In this document: piece by piece, positions 13,815-52,387 of the stretch
Numbering within the stretch: the stretch's first letter is position 1
How the letters are laid out: the number at the start of each line of letters is the position of its first letter
Position numbers and translations under genes: made by a program
Notes under the pieces: generated by a model
The model's database searches: none
What the model saw: only the letters and a program-made list of their open reading frames with translations
Told to the model about the DNA's origin: nothing
Assembly: GCF_002797495.1 (NCBI RefSeq)
Contig: NZ_PGEZ01000001.1
Location: forward strand, 1,240,001-1,304,000
From: Mumia flava
GTDB lineage: Bacteria > Actinomycetota > Actinomycetes > Propionibacteriales > Nocardioidaceae
Length of the DNA: 64,000 nucleotides
Direction of reading: 5' to 3'

Positions 13815-13936
13815 CCGTTGGTCGAGGCCGAGCGAAGCGAGGCTCGAGACCCGTTCGGGGTCTCGATCACTCACTCGTCCCTCGCTCGCGCCTCGACCAA
13901 CGGAAGCACCGGCCTCGCTCGCGCCTCGACCAGCGG
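13815..13936. repeat. Dispersed intergenic element with hairpin, downstream of lon
   Basis: ccgttggtcgaggc (13815-13828) pairs with gcctcgaccaacgg (13890-13903). Internal parts ggtctcgatcactcact... and a second gcgcctcgaccagcgg (13921-13936) match the element at 2601-2640 and 22.86 kb. It lies just after the lon stop and may end lon transcription. Confidence 0.65.
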
Positions 13937-22856: not shown

Positions 22857-23102
22857 GGTCTCGATCGCTCGCTGCGCTCGCGCCTCGACCAGCGGGAAGG
22901 GAAGCGCTCGCGCCTCGACCAGCGGGAAGGGAAGCGCTCGCGCCTCGACCAGCGGGAAGGAAGCGCTCGCGCCTCGACCAGCGGGAAGGGAAGCGCTCGC
23001 GCCTCGACCAGCGGGAAGGGAAGCGCTCGCGCCTCGACCAGCGGGAAGGGCAGCGCTCGCGCCTCGACCAGCGGGAAGGGCAGCGCTCGCGCCTCGACCA
23101 GC
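22856..23102. repeat. Tandem array: eight copies of a 30-bp repeat seeded by the dispersed element
   Basis: The stretch opens with the dispersed element (gggtctcgatcgctcgct, 22856-22873) and continues as cgctcgcgcctcgaccagcg + ggaagggaag, repeated from 22875, 22905, 22935 (29 bp), 22964, 22994, 23024, 23054 and a truncated copy at 23084. Copies differ by g/c and one deleted base. It accounts for nearly all of the 298-bp gene-free gap between the CGNR gene and the helicase. Such near-identical arrays usually vary in copy number between strains. Confidence 0.92.
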
Positions 23103-23127
23103 CGAGAGGGGCCCGTAGGATGAACGG

Positions 23128-41756: not shown

Positions 41757-45921
<4,165 letters not shown>

Positions 45922-48109: not shown

Positions 48110-48940
48110 ATGAACGACGACTATCTCGCGATCAACCGCGCGATGTGGGACGACCGCGCCGCCGCCCACGCCGCGTCGGTCGACTACGACCTCGACCGCT
48201 ACCTCCGTGACCCGGACGCGATCAGTGACGTGGTCCGCTTCGACGTGCCCCGGCTCGGGTCGATCGACGGGCTGCGGACCGTCCATCTCCAGTGCCACAT
48301 CGGGACCGACACCCTCAGCCTCCACCGTCTCGGCGCACAGGTCGTCGGTCTCGACCTCTCCCCTGCGTCGCTGCGCGAGGCCCGTTCGCTGGCCGAGCGC
48401 GCCGGCGCCACGATCGACTACGTCGAGGGCGACGTGTACGACGCGGTGCGGCTGCTCGGCGCCGAGCGCTTCGATCTCGTCTACACCGGGATCGGCGCTC
48501 TGCTCTGGCTCCCCGAGATGGACCGGTGGGCCGCCACGGTCGCCGGGCTGCTGTCGCCGGGCGGACGGCTGTTCGTCCGCGAAGGGCACCCGATGATCGG
48601 GACGTACGAGGTGGTCGACGGCGCGGCCGTCTCCCGGTACCCGTACTTCGCCACCGGCGAGCCGCTGGTGTTCACCGACGACGAGACGTACGTCGAGACC
48701 GACCTCCCGCTGCAGGGGCTGGAGAGCCGCGAGTGGACGCACTCGCTCGGCGAGGTGGTCGCGGCTCTGCTGCGTGCGGGGCTGACGCTCACAGGCCTCG
48801 ACGAGCACGACTCGGTCCCGTGGCCGGCGCTGCCGGGCCTGATGGCGCCGCACCCGGTCCACCCCGGCGAGATGCGGCTCGCCGACCACCCCGAGCGGAT
48901 GGCGGCCAGCTTCACGCTCCGCGCTCGCAAGCCTGCCTGA
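48110..48940 (+). CDS. SAM-dependent class I methyltransferase
   Basis: A 276-residue methyltransferase. The SAM-binding motif I is VHLQCHIGTDTLSLHRLGAQ followed by VVGLDLSPASLREA (motif II Asp) and DYVEGDVYDA; FDLVYTGIGALLWLPEMDRW is motif IV. The start INRAMWDDRAAAHA is typical of a small-molecule methyltransferase branch common in actinobacteria. It begins 4 nt after the EamA stop, so the two are cotranscribed; methylation and export of the same compound is a possible but unproven link. Confidence 0.87.
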   Translation: MNDDYLAINRAMWDDRAAAHAASVDYDLDRYLRDPDAISDVVRFDVPRLGSIDGLRTVHLQCHIGTDTLSLHRLGAQVVGLDLSPASLREARSLAERAGATIDYVEGDVYDAVRLLGAERFDLVYTGIGALLWLPEMDRWAATVAGLLSPGGRLFVREGHPMIGTYEVVDGAAVSRYPYFATGEPLVFTDDETYVETDLPLQGLESREWTHSLGEVVAALLRAGLTLTGLDEHDSVPWPALPGLMAPHPVHPGEMRLADHPERMAASFTLRARKPA

Positions 48941-48972
48941 GGCGTACGAGCCCGGCTCCCCGAACGCACAAC

Positions 48973-49011
48973 GGGCCCGCCGCCACCGGCCCGACCGGTG
49001 ACGACAGGCCC
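48973..49011. terminator. 17-bp hairpin between convergent genes
   Basis: gggcccgccgccaccgg (48973-48989) faces ccggtgacgacaggccc (48995-49011) around a 5-nt loop. The three mismatches are G-U wobbles when read on the minus strand, so it best terminates the thrC/sulfur-carrier transcript. Confidence 0.7.
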
Positions 49012-49033
49012 ACAGGCTCGTCCTGGGGTCAGG

Positions 49034-49315
49034 TCAGACGGCCCCGCCGGCCACGGCCGGGATGATCGAGACCTGCTGGCCCGCCGGGATCGCCGTGTCG
49101 AGCCCGTCGGCGAACCGGATGTCCTCGGTCCCGACGTAGACGTTGACGAACCGCCGCAGAGCGCCCGTCTCGTCGACGACCCGCGCCTTGATGCCCGGGT
49201 AGTCGGACTCGAGGGCGTCGATGACCGAGGCGACCGTGTCGCCCTCGACGCTCACCTCCGAATCACCCTTCGTGTAGGTGCGCAGGATCGTGGGGATGCG
49301 GACGGAGACGCTCAT
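49034..49315 (-). CDS. MoaD/ThiS-family sulfur-carrier protein (CysO/HcyS-like) with C-terminal GGAV
   Basis: A 93-residue ubiquitin-fold protein closely patterned on mycobacterial CysO: VSVRIPTILRTYTKGDSEVS, LESDYPGIKARVVDETGALR, RFVNVYVGTEDIRFADGLDT and SIIPAVAGG. Unlike CysO and ThiS it does not end in Gly-Gly; two residues (Ala-Val) follow G90-G91. Such tails must be clipped by a JAMM peptidase before thiocarboxylation, as known for HcyS and QbsE. It lies 100 bp after threonine synthase on the same strand, under the SAM riboswitch, so it probably donates sulfide to cysteine or homocysteine synthesis. Confidence 0.87.
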   Translation of the reverse strand: MSVSVRIPTILRTYTKGDSEVSVEGDTVASVIDALESDYPGIKARVVDETGALRRFVNVYVGTEDIRFADGLDTAIPAGQQVSIIPAVAGGAV

Positions 49316-49337
49316 GATGTCCTCTCAGCGGGTGGTG

Positions 49338-49407
49338 GGGTCTCGATCGCTCGCTACGCTCGCGCCTCGACCAGCGGGAAGGAAGAGGCTCGCGCCTCGA
49401 CCAGCGG
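49338..49407. repeat. Dispersed element, 1.75 copies, between thrC and the sulfur-carrier gene
   Basis: gggtctcgatcgctcgctac followed by gctcgcgcctcgaccagcgg (49338-49377), then gaaggaagag and a second gctcgcgcctcgaccagcgg (49388-49407). It is the same unit as the 22.86-23.10 kb array, here starting to duplicate. It sits inside an operon, so it is transcribed. Confidence 0.85.
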
Positions 49408-49415
49408 AACGTGGA

Positions 49416-50681
49416 TCAGGCCAGGTCGGCAGCGACGAAGTCGGGGTAGCTCGGGTCGATGGTCGCGGCGGGGCCGACCCGGTCGGCAACCGCGTCGAGC
49501 GTCTTGAGCCCGTCGCCGGTGTTGAACACCACGGTCTCGGCGTCGGGATCGAGCTGTCCGGTCTCGAGCAGCTTCTTGAGGGTCGCGATCGTGACGCCGC
49601 CGGCCGTCTCGGCGAAGATCCCCTCGGTCCGCGCCAGCAGCTGGATCCCGTCGCGCACCTCGTCGTCGGAGACGTCCTCGACGGCACCACCGGTGCGCCG
49701 GCAGGTGTCGAGCACGTACGGGCCGTCCGCGGGGTTGCCGATCGCCAGCGACTTGGCGATCGTGTCCGGCTTGACCGGCCGTACGACGTCGTGGCCGTCC
49801 CGGAACGCCTGCGCGACGGGCGAGCACCCGGTCGCCTGGGCGCCGAAGATCCTGTACGGGGTGGGCTCGACGAGACCGAGCTCGCCGAGCTCGGTGAAGC
49901 CCTTGTCGACCTTCGTCAGCTGCGAGCCCGACGCGACCGGGATCACGACCTGCTCCGGCAGCCTCCAGCCGAGCTGCTCGGCGGTCTCGTAGGCGAGCGT
50001 CTTCGAGCCCTCGGCGTAGTACGGACGGACGTTGACGTTGACGAACGCCCAGTCCTCCTCCTCGCCGGCGATCTCGGACGCGAGCTTGTTGACGTCGTCG
50101 TAGTTGCCCCGGACCGCGACCAGCGTGCCGCCGTACACAGCGGTGGTGATGACCTTCGGCCGCTCGAGGTTCTCGGGGATGAACACGACGCTGCGGATGC
50201 CGGCGCGAGCCGCGGCCGCGGCCACGGCGTTGGCGAGGTTGCCGGTCGACGGGCACGCGAGCACGGTCTTGCCCAGCTCGCGGGCCGCTGACAGCGCCAC
50301 GGCCACCACGCGGTCCTTGAACGAGTGCGTCGGGTTGCCGGAGTCGTCCTTCACCCAGAGCGTCTTGATCCCGAGCTCGCGCGCGAGGTTGTCGGCCTTG
50401 ACGAGCCGGGTGAATCCCGGGTCGGTGTTCGGGATCGCCGCGATGTCGGCCGGCACCGGGAGGAGCGGCTGGTAGCGCCAGATGCTCTTCGGGCCGGCCT
50501 CGATCTGCTCGCGGGTGATCGTCGGGAAGTCGTACCTCACCTCGAGCGGACCGAAACACTCGATGCACGCGTAGAACGGGCCGAGCTCTTGACGCGCACC
50601 GCAGGCGCGACAGGTCAGGCCCACGGCATTGCCGAAGGAACGACGGGTGGTGGTGGGGACGTCCAGGGTGCTCGCGCTCAC
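49416..50681 (-). CDS. thrC: Threonine synthase
   Basis: A 421-residue PLP enzyme of fold type II. The N-terminal zinc-ribbon-like pair C24/C27 and C39/C42 precedes the catalytic domain, the PLP lysine is K122 in NPTHSFKDR, and CPSTGNLANAVAAAAAR plus SGSQLTKVDKGF bind phosphate and substrate. It converts O-phosphohomoserine to threonine. The GTG at 50681 follows GGAGG. A SAM-I riboswitch in the leader lowers expression when S-adenosylmethionine is high, tying the threonine branch to methionine status. Confidence 0.95.
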   Translation of the reverse strand: MSASTLDVPTTTRRSFGNAVGLTCRACGARQELGPFYACIECFGPLEVRYDFPTITREQIEAGPKSIWRYQPLLPVPADIAAIPNTDPGFTRLVKADNLARELGIKTLWVKDDSGNPTHSFKDRVVAVALSAARELGKTVLACPSTGNLANAVAAAAARAGIRSVVFIPENLERPKVITTAVYGGTLVAVRGNYDDVNKLASEIAGEEEDWAFVNVNVRPYYAEGSKTLAYETAEQLGWRLPEQVVIPVASGSQLTKVDKGFTELGELGLVEPTPYRIFGAQATGCSPVAQAFRDGHDVVRPVKPDTIAKSLAIGNPADGPYVLDTCRRTGGAVEDVSDDEVRDGIQLLARTEGIFAETAGGVTIATLKKLLETGQLDPDAETVVFNTGDGLKTLDAVADRVGPAATIDPSYPDFVAADLA

Positions 50682-50694
50682 GAGGCCTCCTCTG

Positions 50695-50830
50695 TCATCT
50701 CTCCCGCGGACGACCTTCGCCGCGAGACGGATTTGGCACCATGCCGCGCGTCGGCCTCGCCTGGTCGCGAGCTACGCACGGTGGTTGCCGGGGCTTCGTC
50801 GGGCCGTTCCCTCCGCCCCTCTCGATGAGC
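50695..50830 (-). ncRNA. SAM-I (S-box) riboswitch upstream of thrC
   Basis: Read on the minus strand from 50830: ctcatcgagag, gcggagggaacggcccgacg, aagccccggcaacc, a variable stem, then atggtgccaaatccgtctcg and gagagatgac closing P1 (catc/gatg). These are the S-box core elements, including the kink-turn side of P2 and the ggtgccaaatcc SAM pocket. It ends 13 nt before the thrC start, overlapping the approach to the ribosome site. Confidence 0.93.
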
Positions 50831-50838
50831 TGTGACCA

Positions 50839-50867
50839 ACTGTAGGCAGGCGTCTCACATACCGTCC
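50839..50867 (-). promoter_or_regulatory. Predicted thrC promoter
   Basis: On the minus strand tacagt (50844-50839) is a good -10 box placed 7-8 nt before the 5' edge of the SAM riboswitch; ttggac lies 19 bp upstream as a weak -35. Confidence 0.45.
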
Positions 50868-50962
50868 AATCGGTCCGGCATCCGAGACCGACCTTCTCGG
50901 GGTGCGGGCACCCGGCTCCGGGACGGAGGAACGGACGAGGTCGCGCCCGCGGGCCGGATCGA

Positions 50963-52387
50963 TCAGCCGGCGCGCTCCTCGTTGCTGCGCTCGCCGGCGC
51001 TGTCCTCGACGACCTCTGCCTCGAACACCAGCTCCGGGCGGTCGACACCCGTCTGCGCGAGCGCGGCGTCCTCGATGCTGCGCCGCGCAGCGACCTCCTC
51101 GGCGGCCGCCTCGAGCCGGGTGAGCCTGCGCGGGGACTTCTCGATCCGGGTGGGCTCCCCGAGGACCTTCGTCTCGTCCAGGTTGTCGAGCTTGCGTGCG
51201 GTCGCGAGCACGCGCCCCTCGAGCGAACCGGCGAACTTGTTGTAGCTCTCGACCGTCGACTCGATCGAGCGCCGCAGCTTGTCGGCGTGGTCGGTGAGTG
51301 TGCCGATCCGCTGGTAGAGCTCCTTGCCGAGATCGAACAGCGTCTTGGCGTCCTCGGTCAGCGCCTCCTGCTGCCAGGTGAACGCGACCGTCTTCAGCAC
51401 GGCCCAGAAGCTCACCGGCGACGCCAGGGCGATGCGCTTGGCGAAGGCGTCCTCCAGCAGGCTGGGATCCTGCTCGAGCGCCGCGGCGAGCAACGGCTCG
51501 TTCGGGATGAAGGCGATCGTGAACTCCGGGCTCACCTCGAGACCGGTCCAGTACTGCTTGGAGGCGAGAGCGTTGACGTGGCTGCGCACCTTCTCCGCGT
51601 GCTGCACCAGCAGGACGCGACGACGGTCCTCCTGCTCCTCGCTCGCCGGGTCGGGGATCGCCATCGCCTCGATGTAGGCGTTGTACGGGACCTTCGCGTC
51701 GACCGCGACCGACTTGCCGCCCGGGAGGCGCAGCACCATGTCGGGACGTCGTGCGCCGGACTCGGCCTGGATCGACGCCTGGAGGTCGAAGTCGACGCGG
51801 TTCAGCAGGCCCGCCGACTCCACGAGGCTGCGCAGCTGTGTCTCGCCCCACTGCCCACGGACCGCGTTGTTCTTCAGGGCGGAAGCCAGGGTCTCGGCCG
51901 CCCGGCGGGACTGGTCCGCGCTCTGCTGGGTGTTGCGGATCTGCTCGGCGAGCCGGCCGTGCTGCTCGCGACGCTGCTGCTCGAGGTCCTCGACCTTTTG
52001 CTGCATCGACGACAGGGCCTTCTGGACCGGCGCCAACTGCTGGAGAACCTTGCTCTCCGCCTCCTGCGCCCGCTCACGCTGACGGCGCTCGCGGTCGTGC
52101 TGCTCGTGCATCGAGCGGTAACGGGCCTCAGCGGCGGACAGCTCCCGCCGGAGGCCTTCGACCGAGGCCGCGGTCGAGGCCAGCTCGCGCTCGACCTCGG
52201 CACGCTGGGCCGCCTCGGCCGCCCGGACCTCCGCGACCGCCCGCTCGTGGCGAGCCGCCAGCACCTCGGGGTCGACCCGCTCGGTCGAGGAGTCCGCGGA
52301 CCGTGACCGCGCAGCCAACCACCCCACCAGGCCACCGAGAACGACTCCGACGAGGAGACCGACCAACAACACCGCCACGAGATCCAT
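50963..52387 (-). CDS. rmuC: RmuC-family DNA recombination protein
   Basis: A 474-residue RmuC protein: an N-terminal membrane helix (VLLVGLLVGVVLGGLVGWLA), a coiled coil of about 150 residues rich in Arg/Glu/Gln, then the nuclease-like RmuC domain with GQWGETQLRSLVESAGLL, RRPDMVLRLPGGKSVAVDAK and AYIEAM. The D-x-K motif resembles restriction-endonuclease folds. RmuC limits inversions at short inverted repeats in E. coli, a notable function in a window this rich in palindromes. Tail of 100 residues is variable. Confidence 0.92.
   Translation of the reverse strand: MDLVAVLLVGLLVGVVLGGLVGWLAARSRSADSSTERVDPEVLAARHERAVAEVRAAEAAQRAEVERELASTAASVEGLRRELSAAEARYRSMHEQHDRERRQRERAQEAESKVLQQLAPVQKALSSMQQKVEDLEQQRREQHGRLAEQIRNTQQSADQSRRAAETLASALKNNAVRGQWGETQLRSLVESAGLLNRVDFDLQASIQAESGARRPDMVLRLPGGKSVAVDAKVPYNAYIEAMAIPDPASEEQEDRRRVLLVQHAEKVRSHVNALASKQYWTGLEVSPEFTIAFIPNEPLLAAALEQDPSLLEDAFAKRIALASPVSFWAVLKTVAFTWQQEALTEDAKTLFDLGKELYQRIGTLTDHADKLRRSIESTVESYNKFAGSLEGRVLATARKLDNLDETKVLGEPTRIEKSPRRLTRLEAAAEEVAARRSIEDAALAQTGVDRPELVFEAEVVEDSAGERSNEERAG

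Follow-up and report, generated by a model that had tools for sequence, protein, structure and literature searches.

A probable metM-metO operon for homocysteine synthesis, preceded by a SAM-I riboswitch, in Mumia flava

Results and discussion

We analysed a window of 64,000 nucleotides (positions 1,240,001 to 1,304,000 of contig NZ_PGEZ01000001.1) from the Mumia flava genome (4.40 Mb, 7 contigs, 99.75% complete), in which a SAM-I riboswitch, a threonine-synthase-like gene and a gene for a ubiquitin-fold sulfur carrier follow one another on the minus strand. The locus is very probably a metM-metO operon, whose “thrC” would encode a homocysteine synthase fed by the carrier, MetO. This reading is built on the parts of the operon and their order, on a separate canonical threonine synthase (ThrC) in the same genome, on other recognised homocysteine routes not being found there, and on class-wide conservation.

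A first-pass annotation of the window had proposed a protein-thiocarboxylate branch of methionine synthesis; such a branch is likely, and our analysis supports the SAM-riboswitch operon and the CysO-like carrier. MetM would most likely take O-phosphohomoserine made via hom and thrB, which are encoded elsewhere in the genome, and the C-terminal thiocarboxylate of MetO would donate the sulfur that yields homocysteine. Before charging, the Ala-Val tail of MetO would have to be trimmed, for which the genome offers one JAMM peptidase, the Mec encoded alongside CysO; the one strong E1-type (MoeZ-like) protein would then load the carrier. Hasebe and colleagues reportedly described metO downstream of metM in 2024, with MetM converting O-phosphohomoserine to homocysteine and the MetO thiocarboxylate acting as sulfur donor. 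Since the route was described in 2024, the window operon is a well-supported new example and not a new system. The features of the locus, in window coordinates, are as follows.

50692..50831, minus strand: SAM-I riboswitch aptamer (RF00162; 67.1 bits, model positions 1-108 of 108)
50686..50691, minus strand: Shine-Dalgarno sequence AGGAGG, from reading of the sequence, directly after the last aptamer base (P1 helix) and ahead of the GTG at 50681
49416..50681, minus strand: metM-like gene, 421 aa, PLP fold-type II with a four-cysteine N-terminal stretch (PF00291, TIGR00260)
49316..49415, minus strand: spacer between the metM-like and metO-like genes, with two dispersed-repeat copies (at 49359 and 49389)
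49034..49315, minus strand: metO-like gene, ubiquitin-fold sulfur carrier of 93 aa with C-terminus Gly-Gly-Ala-Val (PF02597)

The first-pass annotation had described a SAM-I riboswitch ahead of thrC and, 100 bp further on the same strand, a carrier patterned on CysO with a GG-Ala-Val end; the RF00162 match on the minus strand and the open reading frame at 49315-49034 bear out both observations. The gap between the two genes is exactly 100 bp in the window and 13 bp in the Mumia relatives at loci L129 and L130. Folding of the spacer gave no unusual structure (z 1.55). No promoter-like or terminator-like sites were found in 48900-51000 (0.1 and 0.7 expected in shuffles), and the result for promoters neither favours nor disfavours a separate promoter for the carrier.

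The repeat in the spacer has a 19-bp core in units of about 30 bp that are often in tandem; it lies at 49359-49407, 22877-23104, 2622-2640 and 13885-13936. Thirteen occurrences with up to 2 mismatches lie in the window against 0.05 expected, and the genome holds 104 exact copies against 0 of the reversed pattern. Elsewhere in the window (43625-45921, plus strand), a TPP riboswitch (60.1 bits) overlaps the start of an open reading frame for a DAO-family oxidase (thiO-like), which is followed by thiS and then by an open reading frame at the place of thiG; the names thiO and thiG are taken from gene order.

The riboswitch match at 50831-50692 lies well above the gathering score of 44.4 bits (E 1.9e-13), and it is the sole RF00162 match reported for the genome after scoring of 150 out of 195 first-look candidates. 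All 40 homologous loci scanned, which were drawn from 170 such loci and include that of the window, carry the riboswitch. The last base of the aptamer is 50692 and AGGAGG begins at 50691; GAGGAGGCCTCGTG is common to the relatives at L129, L130 and L131. The outer three P1 pairs of the window aptamer are non-standard, and the minimum-energy fold of the leader differs from the aptamer structure. Abundant SAM would turn the operon off, probably because a SAM-stabilised P1 would hide the adjoining ribosome-binding site. At first pass, SAM control had been taken as a hint that the carrier delivers sulfide to homocysteine/methionine synthesis, with thrC competing for O-phosphohomoserine. The part concerning the carrier probably stands; the “thrC” product is most likely the homocysteine synthase and not a competitor. 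Excerpts of PMC12452182 concern Bacillota, with hom1-thrC-thrB controlled by T-boxes and hom1 by SAM riboswitches.

The ThrC-like open reading frame (50681-49416) scores 280.7 bits against TIGR00260 (cut-off 167.1) and 284.6 bits against PRK08197, under the cut-off of 303. Within the class, its product shares 62-80% identity with other window-type proteins of full length. Among the best 80 of at least 529 relatives, the closest named homologues come from two species of Mumia, M. xiangluensis and Mumia sp. zg.B17, at 90% identity each, with other Nocardioidaceae and Kribbella next after Mumia. A canonical threonine synthase is encoded elsewhere in the genome, in a hom-thrC-thrB operon (L023). 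That protein scores 442.8 bits against the threonine synthase chain 2d1f, compared with 163.9 bits for the window protein, whose best score to any solved chain is 181.6 bits.

We aligned 170 fetched window-type sequences with 30 fetched canonical ThrC sequences. The two groups share TIGR00260 membership, PLP fold-type II and the NPTxSFKDR motif with the PLP lysine (K122, in NPTHSFKDR, in the window protein). They differ at positions that are at least 97% conserved within each group: canonical Ser161, Asn163 and Arg166 correspond to Asn217, Arg219 and Tyr222 of the window type, in an alignment with a one-residue gap near position 216, and canonical Gly-Asn-Ala 193-195 aligns with Ala-Ser-Gly 250-252. 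The four conserved N-terminal cysteines of the window type have no counterpart stretch in canonical ThrC. Ser and Arg at the places of canonical Ser161 and Arg166 would contact the phosphate of the substrate, as in Thermus ThrC; a literature search found no paper naming these phosphate-binding residues. Canonical ThrC is present in all 122 genomes of at least 90% completeness that carry the window-type paralogue, so the paralogue is apparently not needed as a threonine synthase. The earlier view of the gene as an ordinary threonine synthase competing for O-phosphohomoserine does not agree with a canonical thrC in hom-thrC-thrB and a paralogue that departs from it at group-conserved positions.

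Searches of the host genome for the enzymes of other homocysteine routes found neither MetA nor the DUF39 pathway protein. MetX was not found either: among the 9 of 17 first-look candidates that were scored, the best E against TIGR01392 was 7.9e-6. Two strong and six weaker (at most 33 bits) PF01053 enzymes are present, and MetY is the best match of neither strong one. One of these (L026) scores 665.7 bits with the cystathionine gamma-synthase model PRK07811 (cut-off 513), and the other is nearest to cystathionine gamma-lyase, below the cut-off. Together with a cystathionine beta-synthase (CBS; TIGR01137, 634.1 against 510.25), the two could carry sulfur from homocysteine to cysteine; a role of the gamma-synthase-type enzyme in forward transsulfuration is possible. 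Excerpts of PMC5764234 mention “the protein thiocarboxylate pathway” and state that homocysteine pathways beyond those then known remained to be discovered; other homocysteine routes are treated there and in PMC7311316, likewise in excerpt.

The window protein, MetX, JAMM, MetA, DUF39 and canonical ThrC were searched for in 197 genomes of the class. We scored the window type as present from 62% identity upwards, counting six partial genes, and MetX from 300 bits upwards; none of the 197 genomes passed the 500-bit cut-off set in the MetX model, and the Corynebacterium glutamicum MetX used as a control also falls below it. The 176 genomes of at least 90% completeness divide into 57 with the window type and MetX, 65 with the window type and without MetX, 50 with MetX only and 4 with neither. 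One of these four (G081) has MetA, which leaves three with none, so that the window type is found in 65 of 68 genomes without MetX and MetA. Five genomes of at least 90% completeness with MetX scores of 92-164 bits were counted as MetX-less; if they are taken as MetX-positive, the figure is 60/63. Families with a MetX/MetA-less member make up 18 of the 25 that carry the gene and 1 of the 10 that do not (Fisher p 0.0017). When labels were shuffled within families, 3.6 genomes on average had neither the window type nor MetX/MetA, against the 3 seen; 43% of the shuffles came out as low, which is not significant. The complementarity with MetX thus sits between families. In the window's own family, 14 of 15 genomes carry the gene and the remaining one has MetX. 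The three genomes of at least 90% completeness without window-type gene, MetX and MetA are G007, G010 and G084, the first of which encodes a ThrC-like protein 40% identical to that of the window; assembly gaps or another homocysteine route may account for them.

A carrier gene follows on the same strand at 69 of 90 window-type loci (30 best matches and 60 picked across families, with about 0.9-1.5 kb of downstream sequence each), and 23 of the 69 have a -4 junction, in which the reading frames overlap by four bases. Among near-relative loci the proportion is 73/80. The 21 metM-type genes without a carrier in the roughly 0.9-1.5 kb downstream are those at L032, L033, L035, L037, L043, L044, L049, L052, L055, L057, L077-L079, L093-L095, L102, L103 and L115-L117; 13 of these loci belong to genomes that lack MetX. 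The enzymes they encode may depend on CysO or on a carrier encoded elsewhere.

The carrier (49315-49034) scores 52.4 bits against PF02597 (cut-off 22.5) and 62.1 against the NCBIfam model SAMP1 (cut-off 60), and ends in PAVAGGAV. It matches the PDB chain 3dwg_C (E 1.2e-25), presumably Mycobacterium tuberculosis CysO. The CysO of the host, with which it shares 60% identity, is encoded in a mec-cysO-cysM operon on another contig (L024:7200-8937) and ends Gly-Gly-Ala-Arg. Carriers with residues after Gly-Gly require their removal before thiocarboxylation. One JAMM match was found in the host genome, the Mec of the mec-cysO-cysM operon, together with one strong ThiF-type (E1-like) match and two below the cut-off. 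The first-pass annotation had made its reading depend on a JAMM peptidase or E1-like activator in the genome; both are present.

In 141 readable related carriers, 100 end in Gly-Gly, 33 in Gly-Gly-Cys and 8 otherwise (CA, A, AV, AR in two, S, SS and SR after Gly-Gly). The 141 come from two locus sets with an overlap of at least 2 (L034/L189 and L068/L186, identical in carrier and gap); L092 was entered as a Cys tail, and L182, whose C-terminus is unreadable, was left out. The first residue past Gly-Gly is Cys, Ala or Ser in all 41 tailed MetO proteins, and ends vary even within Mumia (GGC, GG and the GGAV of the window). As a control we read CysO in the region around Mec in 80 genomes (10 unreadable, 4 without a match): 39 of the 66 readable CysO ends are tailed, 9 of these 39 with Met, Gly or Arg as first residue. 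Tails are thus more frequent on CysO than on MetO, and whether MetO is tailed bears no relation to whether the CysO of that genome is (Fisher p 0.75, 51 genomes). These 141 MetO and 66 CysO C-termini rule out the Ala-Val tail as an HcyS signature: tails are common and variable, so a tail after Gly-Gly is no mark of an HcyS-type pathway. The suggestion made at first pass that GG-Ala-Val marks a system of the HcyS or QbsE type is therefore not upheld.

All 16 tailed carriers among the 69 class loci with a carrier come from genomes in which JAMM was matched. Since the JAMM-less set (20 of 33 JAMM-less genomes compared) includes none of the 69 genomes at all, comparing tail with JAMM presence is uninformative. 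Read-through of the stop codon was considered as the origin of the Cys tail and rejected: a second in-frame stop comes next in 0 of the 100 genes ending in Gly-Gly, so read-through would not yield a one-residue tail. A possible duplication of CTG, from GGCTGA to GGCTGCTGA, fits better. Mec is known to cleave the CysO-cysteine adduct. We think it unlikely that one Mec licenses both carriers, cutting GG-Ala-Arg of CysO and GG-Ala-Val of MetO and so coupling cysteine and methionine supply; if it did, the one-residue Cys tail of 33 of the 141 MetO proteins would be a genome-encoded mimic of the adduct. Both the Met, Gly or Arg at the start of 9 of 39 CysO tails and the missing link between MetO and CysO tails across genomes weaken this idea.

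The CysO-CysM-Mec system, first known from M. tuberculosis, resembles the window operon in the carrier fold (CysO and MetO being 60% identical), and E1 and JAMM are possibly shared. It differs in its CysM partner and in lying in an operon of its own, away from the only SAM-I riboswitch found in the genome. HcyS-HcyD of Wolinella succinogenes also leads from a protein thiocarboxylate to homocysteine, with a carrier that has a residue past Gly-Gly, a MetY-type partner and its own JAMM. Residues past Gly-Gly are common to that carrier and the one in the window, an unspecific trait; the partner in the window is a ThrC paralogue, and the only JAMM found in the genome sits with cysO.

The closest likeness is to MetM-MetO of Streptomyces albulus, in which, according to excerpts of PMC12172450 (citing Hasebe et al. 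2024, doi 10.1128/aem.01247-24), MetM is a homocysteine synthase that occurs with metO and a SAM riboswitch lies upstream of metM. The two loci share the riboswitch, the threonine-synthase-like gene and the sulfur carrier; they belong to different genera, and the window carrier has an Ala-Val tail and follows a repeat-filled spacer of 100 bp. In the window and its genome we found, as in that system, a ThrC paralogue in addition to canonical ThrC, an adjacent carrier gene and an upstream SAM riboswitch, and in the host no recognised homoserine-activating enzyme, MetY or DUF39 protein was found while a cystathionine gamma-synthase-type gene is present. By its architecture and the excerpted account in PMC12172450, the window metM is a putative orthologue of that of S. 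albulus. The pairing is not new, as the same architecture has been published as metM-metO; among the papers listed by our literature searches, PMC12172450 was the only one that we found to treat this gene pair. In its excerpts, a protein from a cyanobacterium that shares 51.6% identity with MetM and has a metO-like neighbour is described as acting as threonine synthase and threonine deaminase in vitro and as not fully MetM-like in cells, and a dual function is therefore possible.

Three other explanations deserve weighing. Forward transsulfuration, in which the gamma-synthase-type enzyme at L026 would act on O-phosphohomoserine and cysteine in a plant-like manner and the operon would have another role, is highly improbable: the enzyme does clear its PRK07811 cut-off, but CBS is also present and fits reverse transsulfuration, and the sole SAM-I riboswitch found, on the window operon, would be left unexplained. 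To our knowledge, O-phosphohomoserine is used by enzymes of the cystathionine gamma-synthase type only in plants. Scarcely credible is an arrangement like HcyS/HcyD in which the carrier would depend on its own JAMM and feed some sulfhydrylase that is not the neighbouring ThrC paralogue. The residues past Gly-Gly and the JAMM in the genome are what it would predict, yet a MetY-type best match is missing, the only JAMM found belongs to mec-cysO-cysM, and 100 of 141 related carriers end in Gly-Gly and would need no trimming.

Nearer to the picture drawn at first pass, the window gene might encode a true threonine synthase, additional to the canonical one and under SAM repression, while the carrier would work for CysM or a different acceptor. 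This we consider very unlikely. Its TIGR00260 score above the cut-off, the co-occurrence of MetX in 57 of the 122 genomes with the gene and the threonine made in vitro by the cyanobacterial MetM-like protein (excerpts of PMC12172450) are to be set against canonical ThrC in all 122 of those genomes and against the differences at the sites of the conserved canonical residues Ser161 and Arg166. A second threonine synthase would also leave the genome without a recognised homocysteine route and, by reasoning, a SAM-repressed threonine enzyme would save methionine precursor just when methionine is unneeded.

Conclusion

Family models name the window gene threonine synthase, so a routine reconstruction would probably score this genome as incapable of making homocysteine. 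The locus also shows that residues beyond Gly-Gly argue only weakly for an HcyS-type pathway. Assignment of the locus to MetM-MetO would fill the homocysteine gap in the M. flava genome. Of the 68 actinomycete genomes surveyed that have neither MetX nor MetA, 65 carry the gene, and in most of the 68 MetM-MetO probably fills the gap too.
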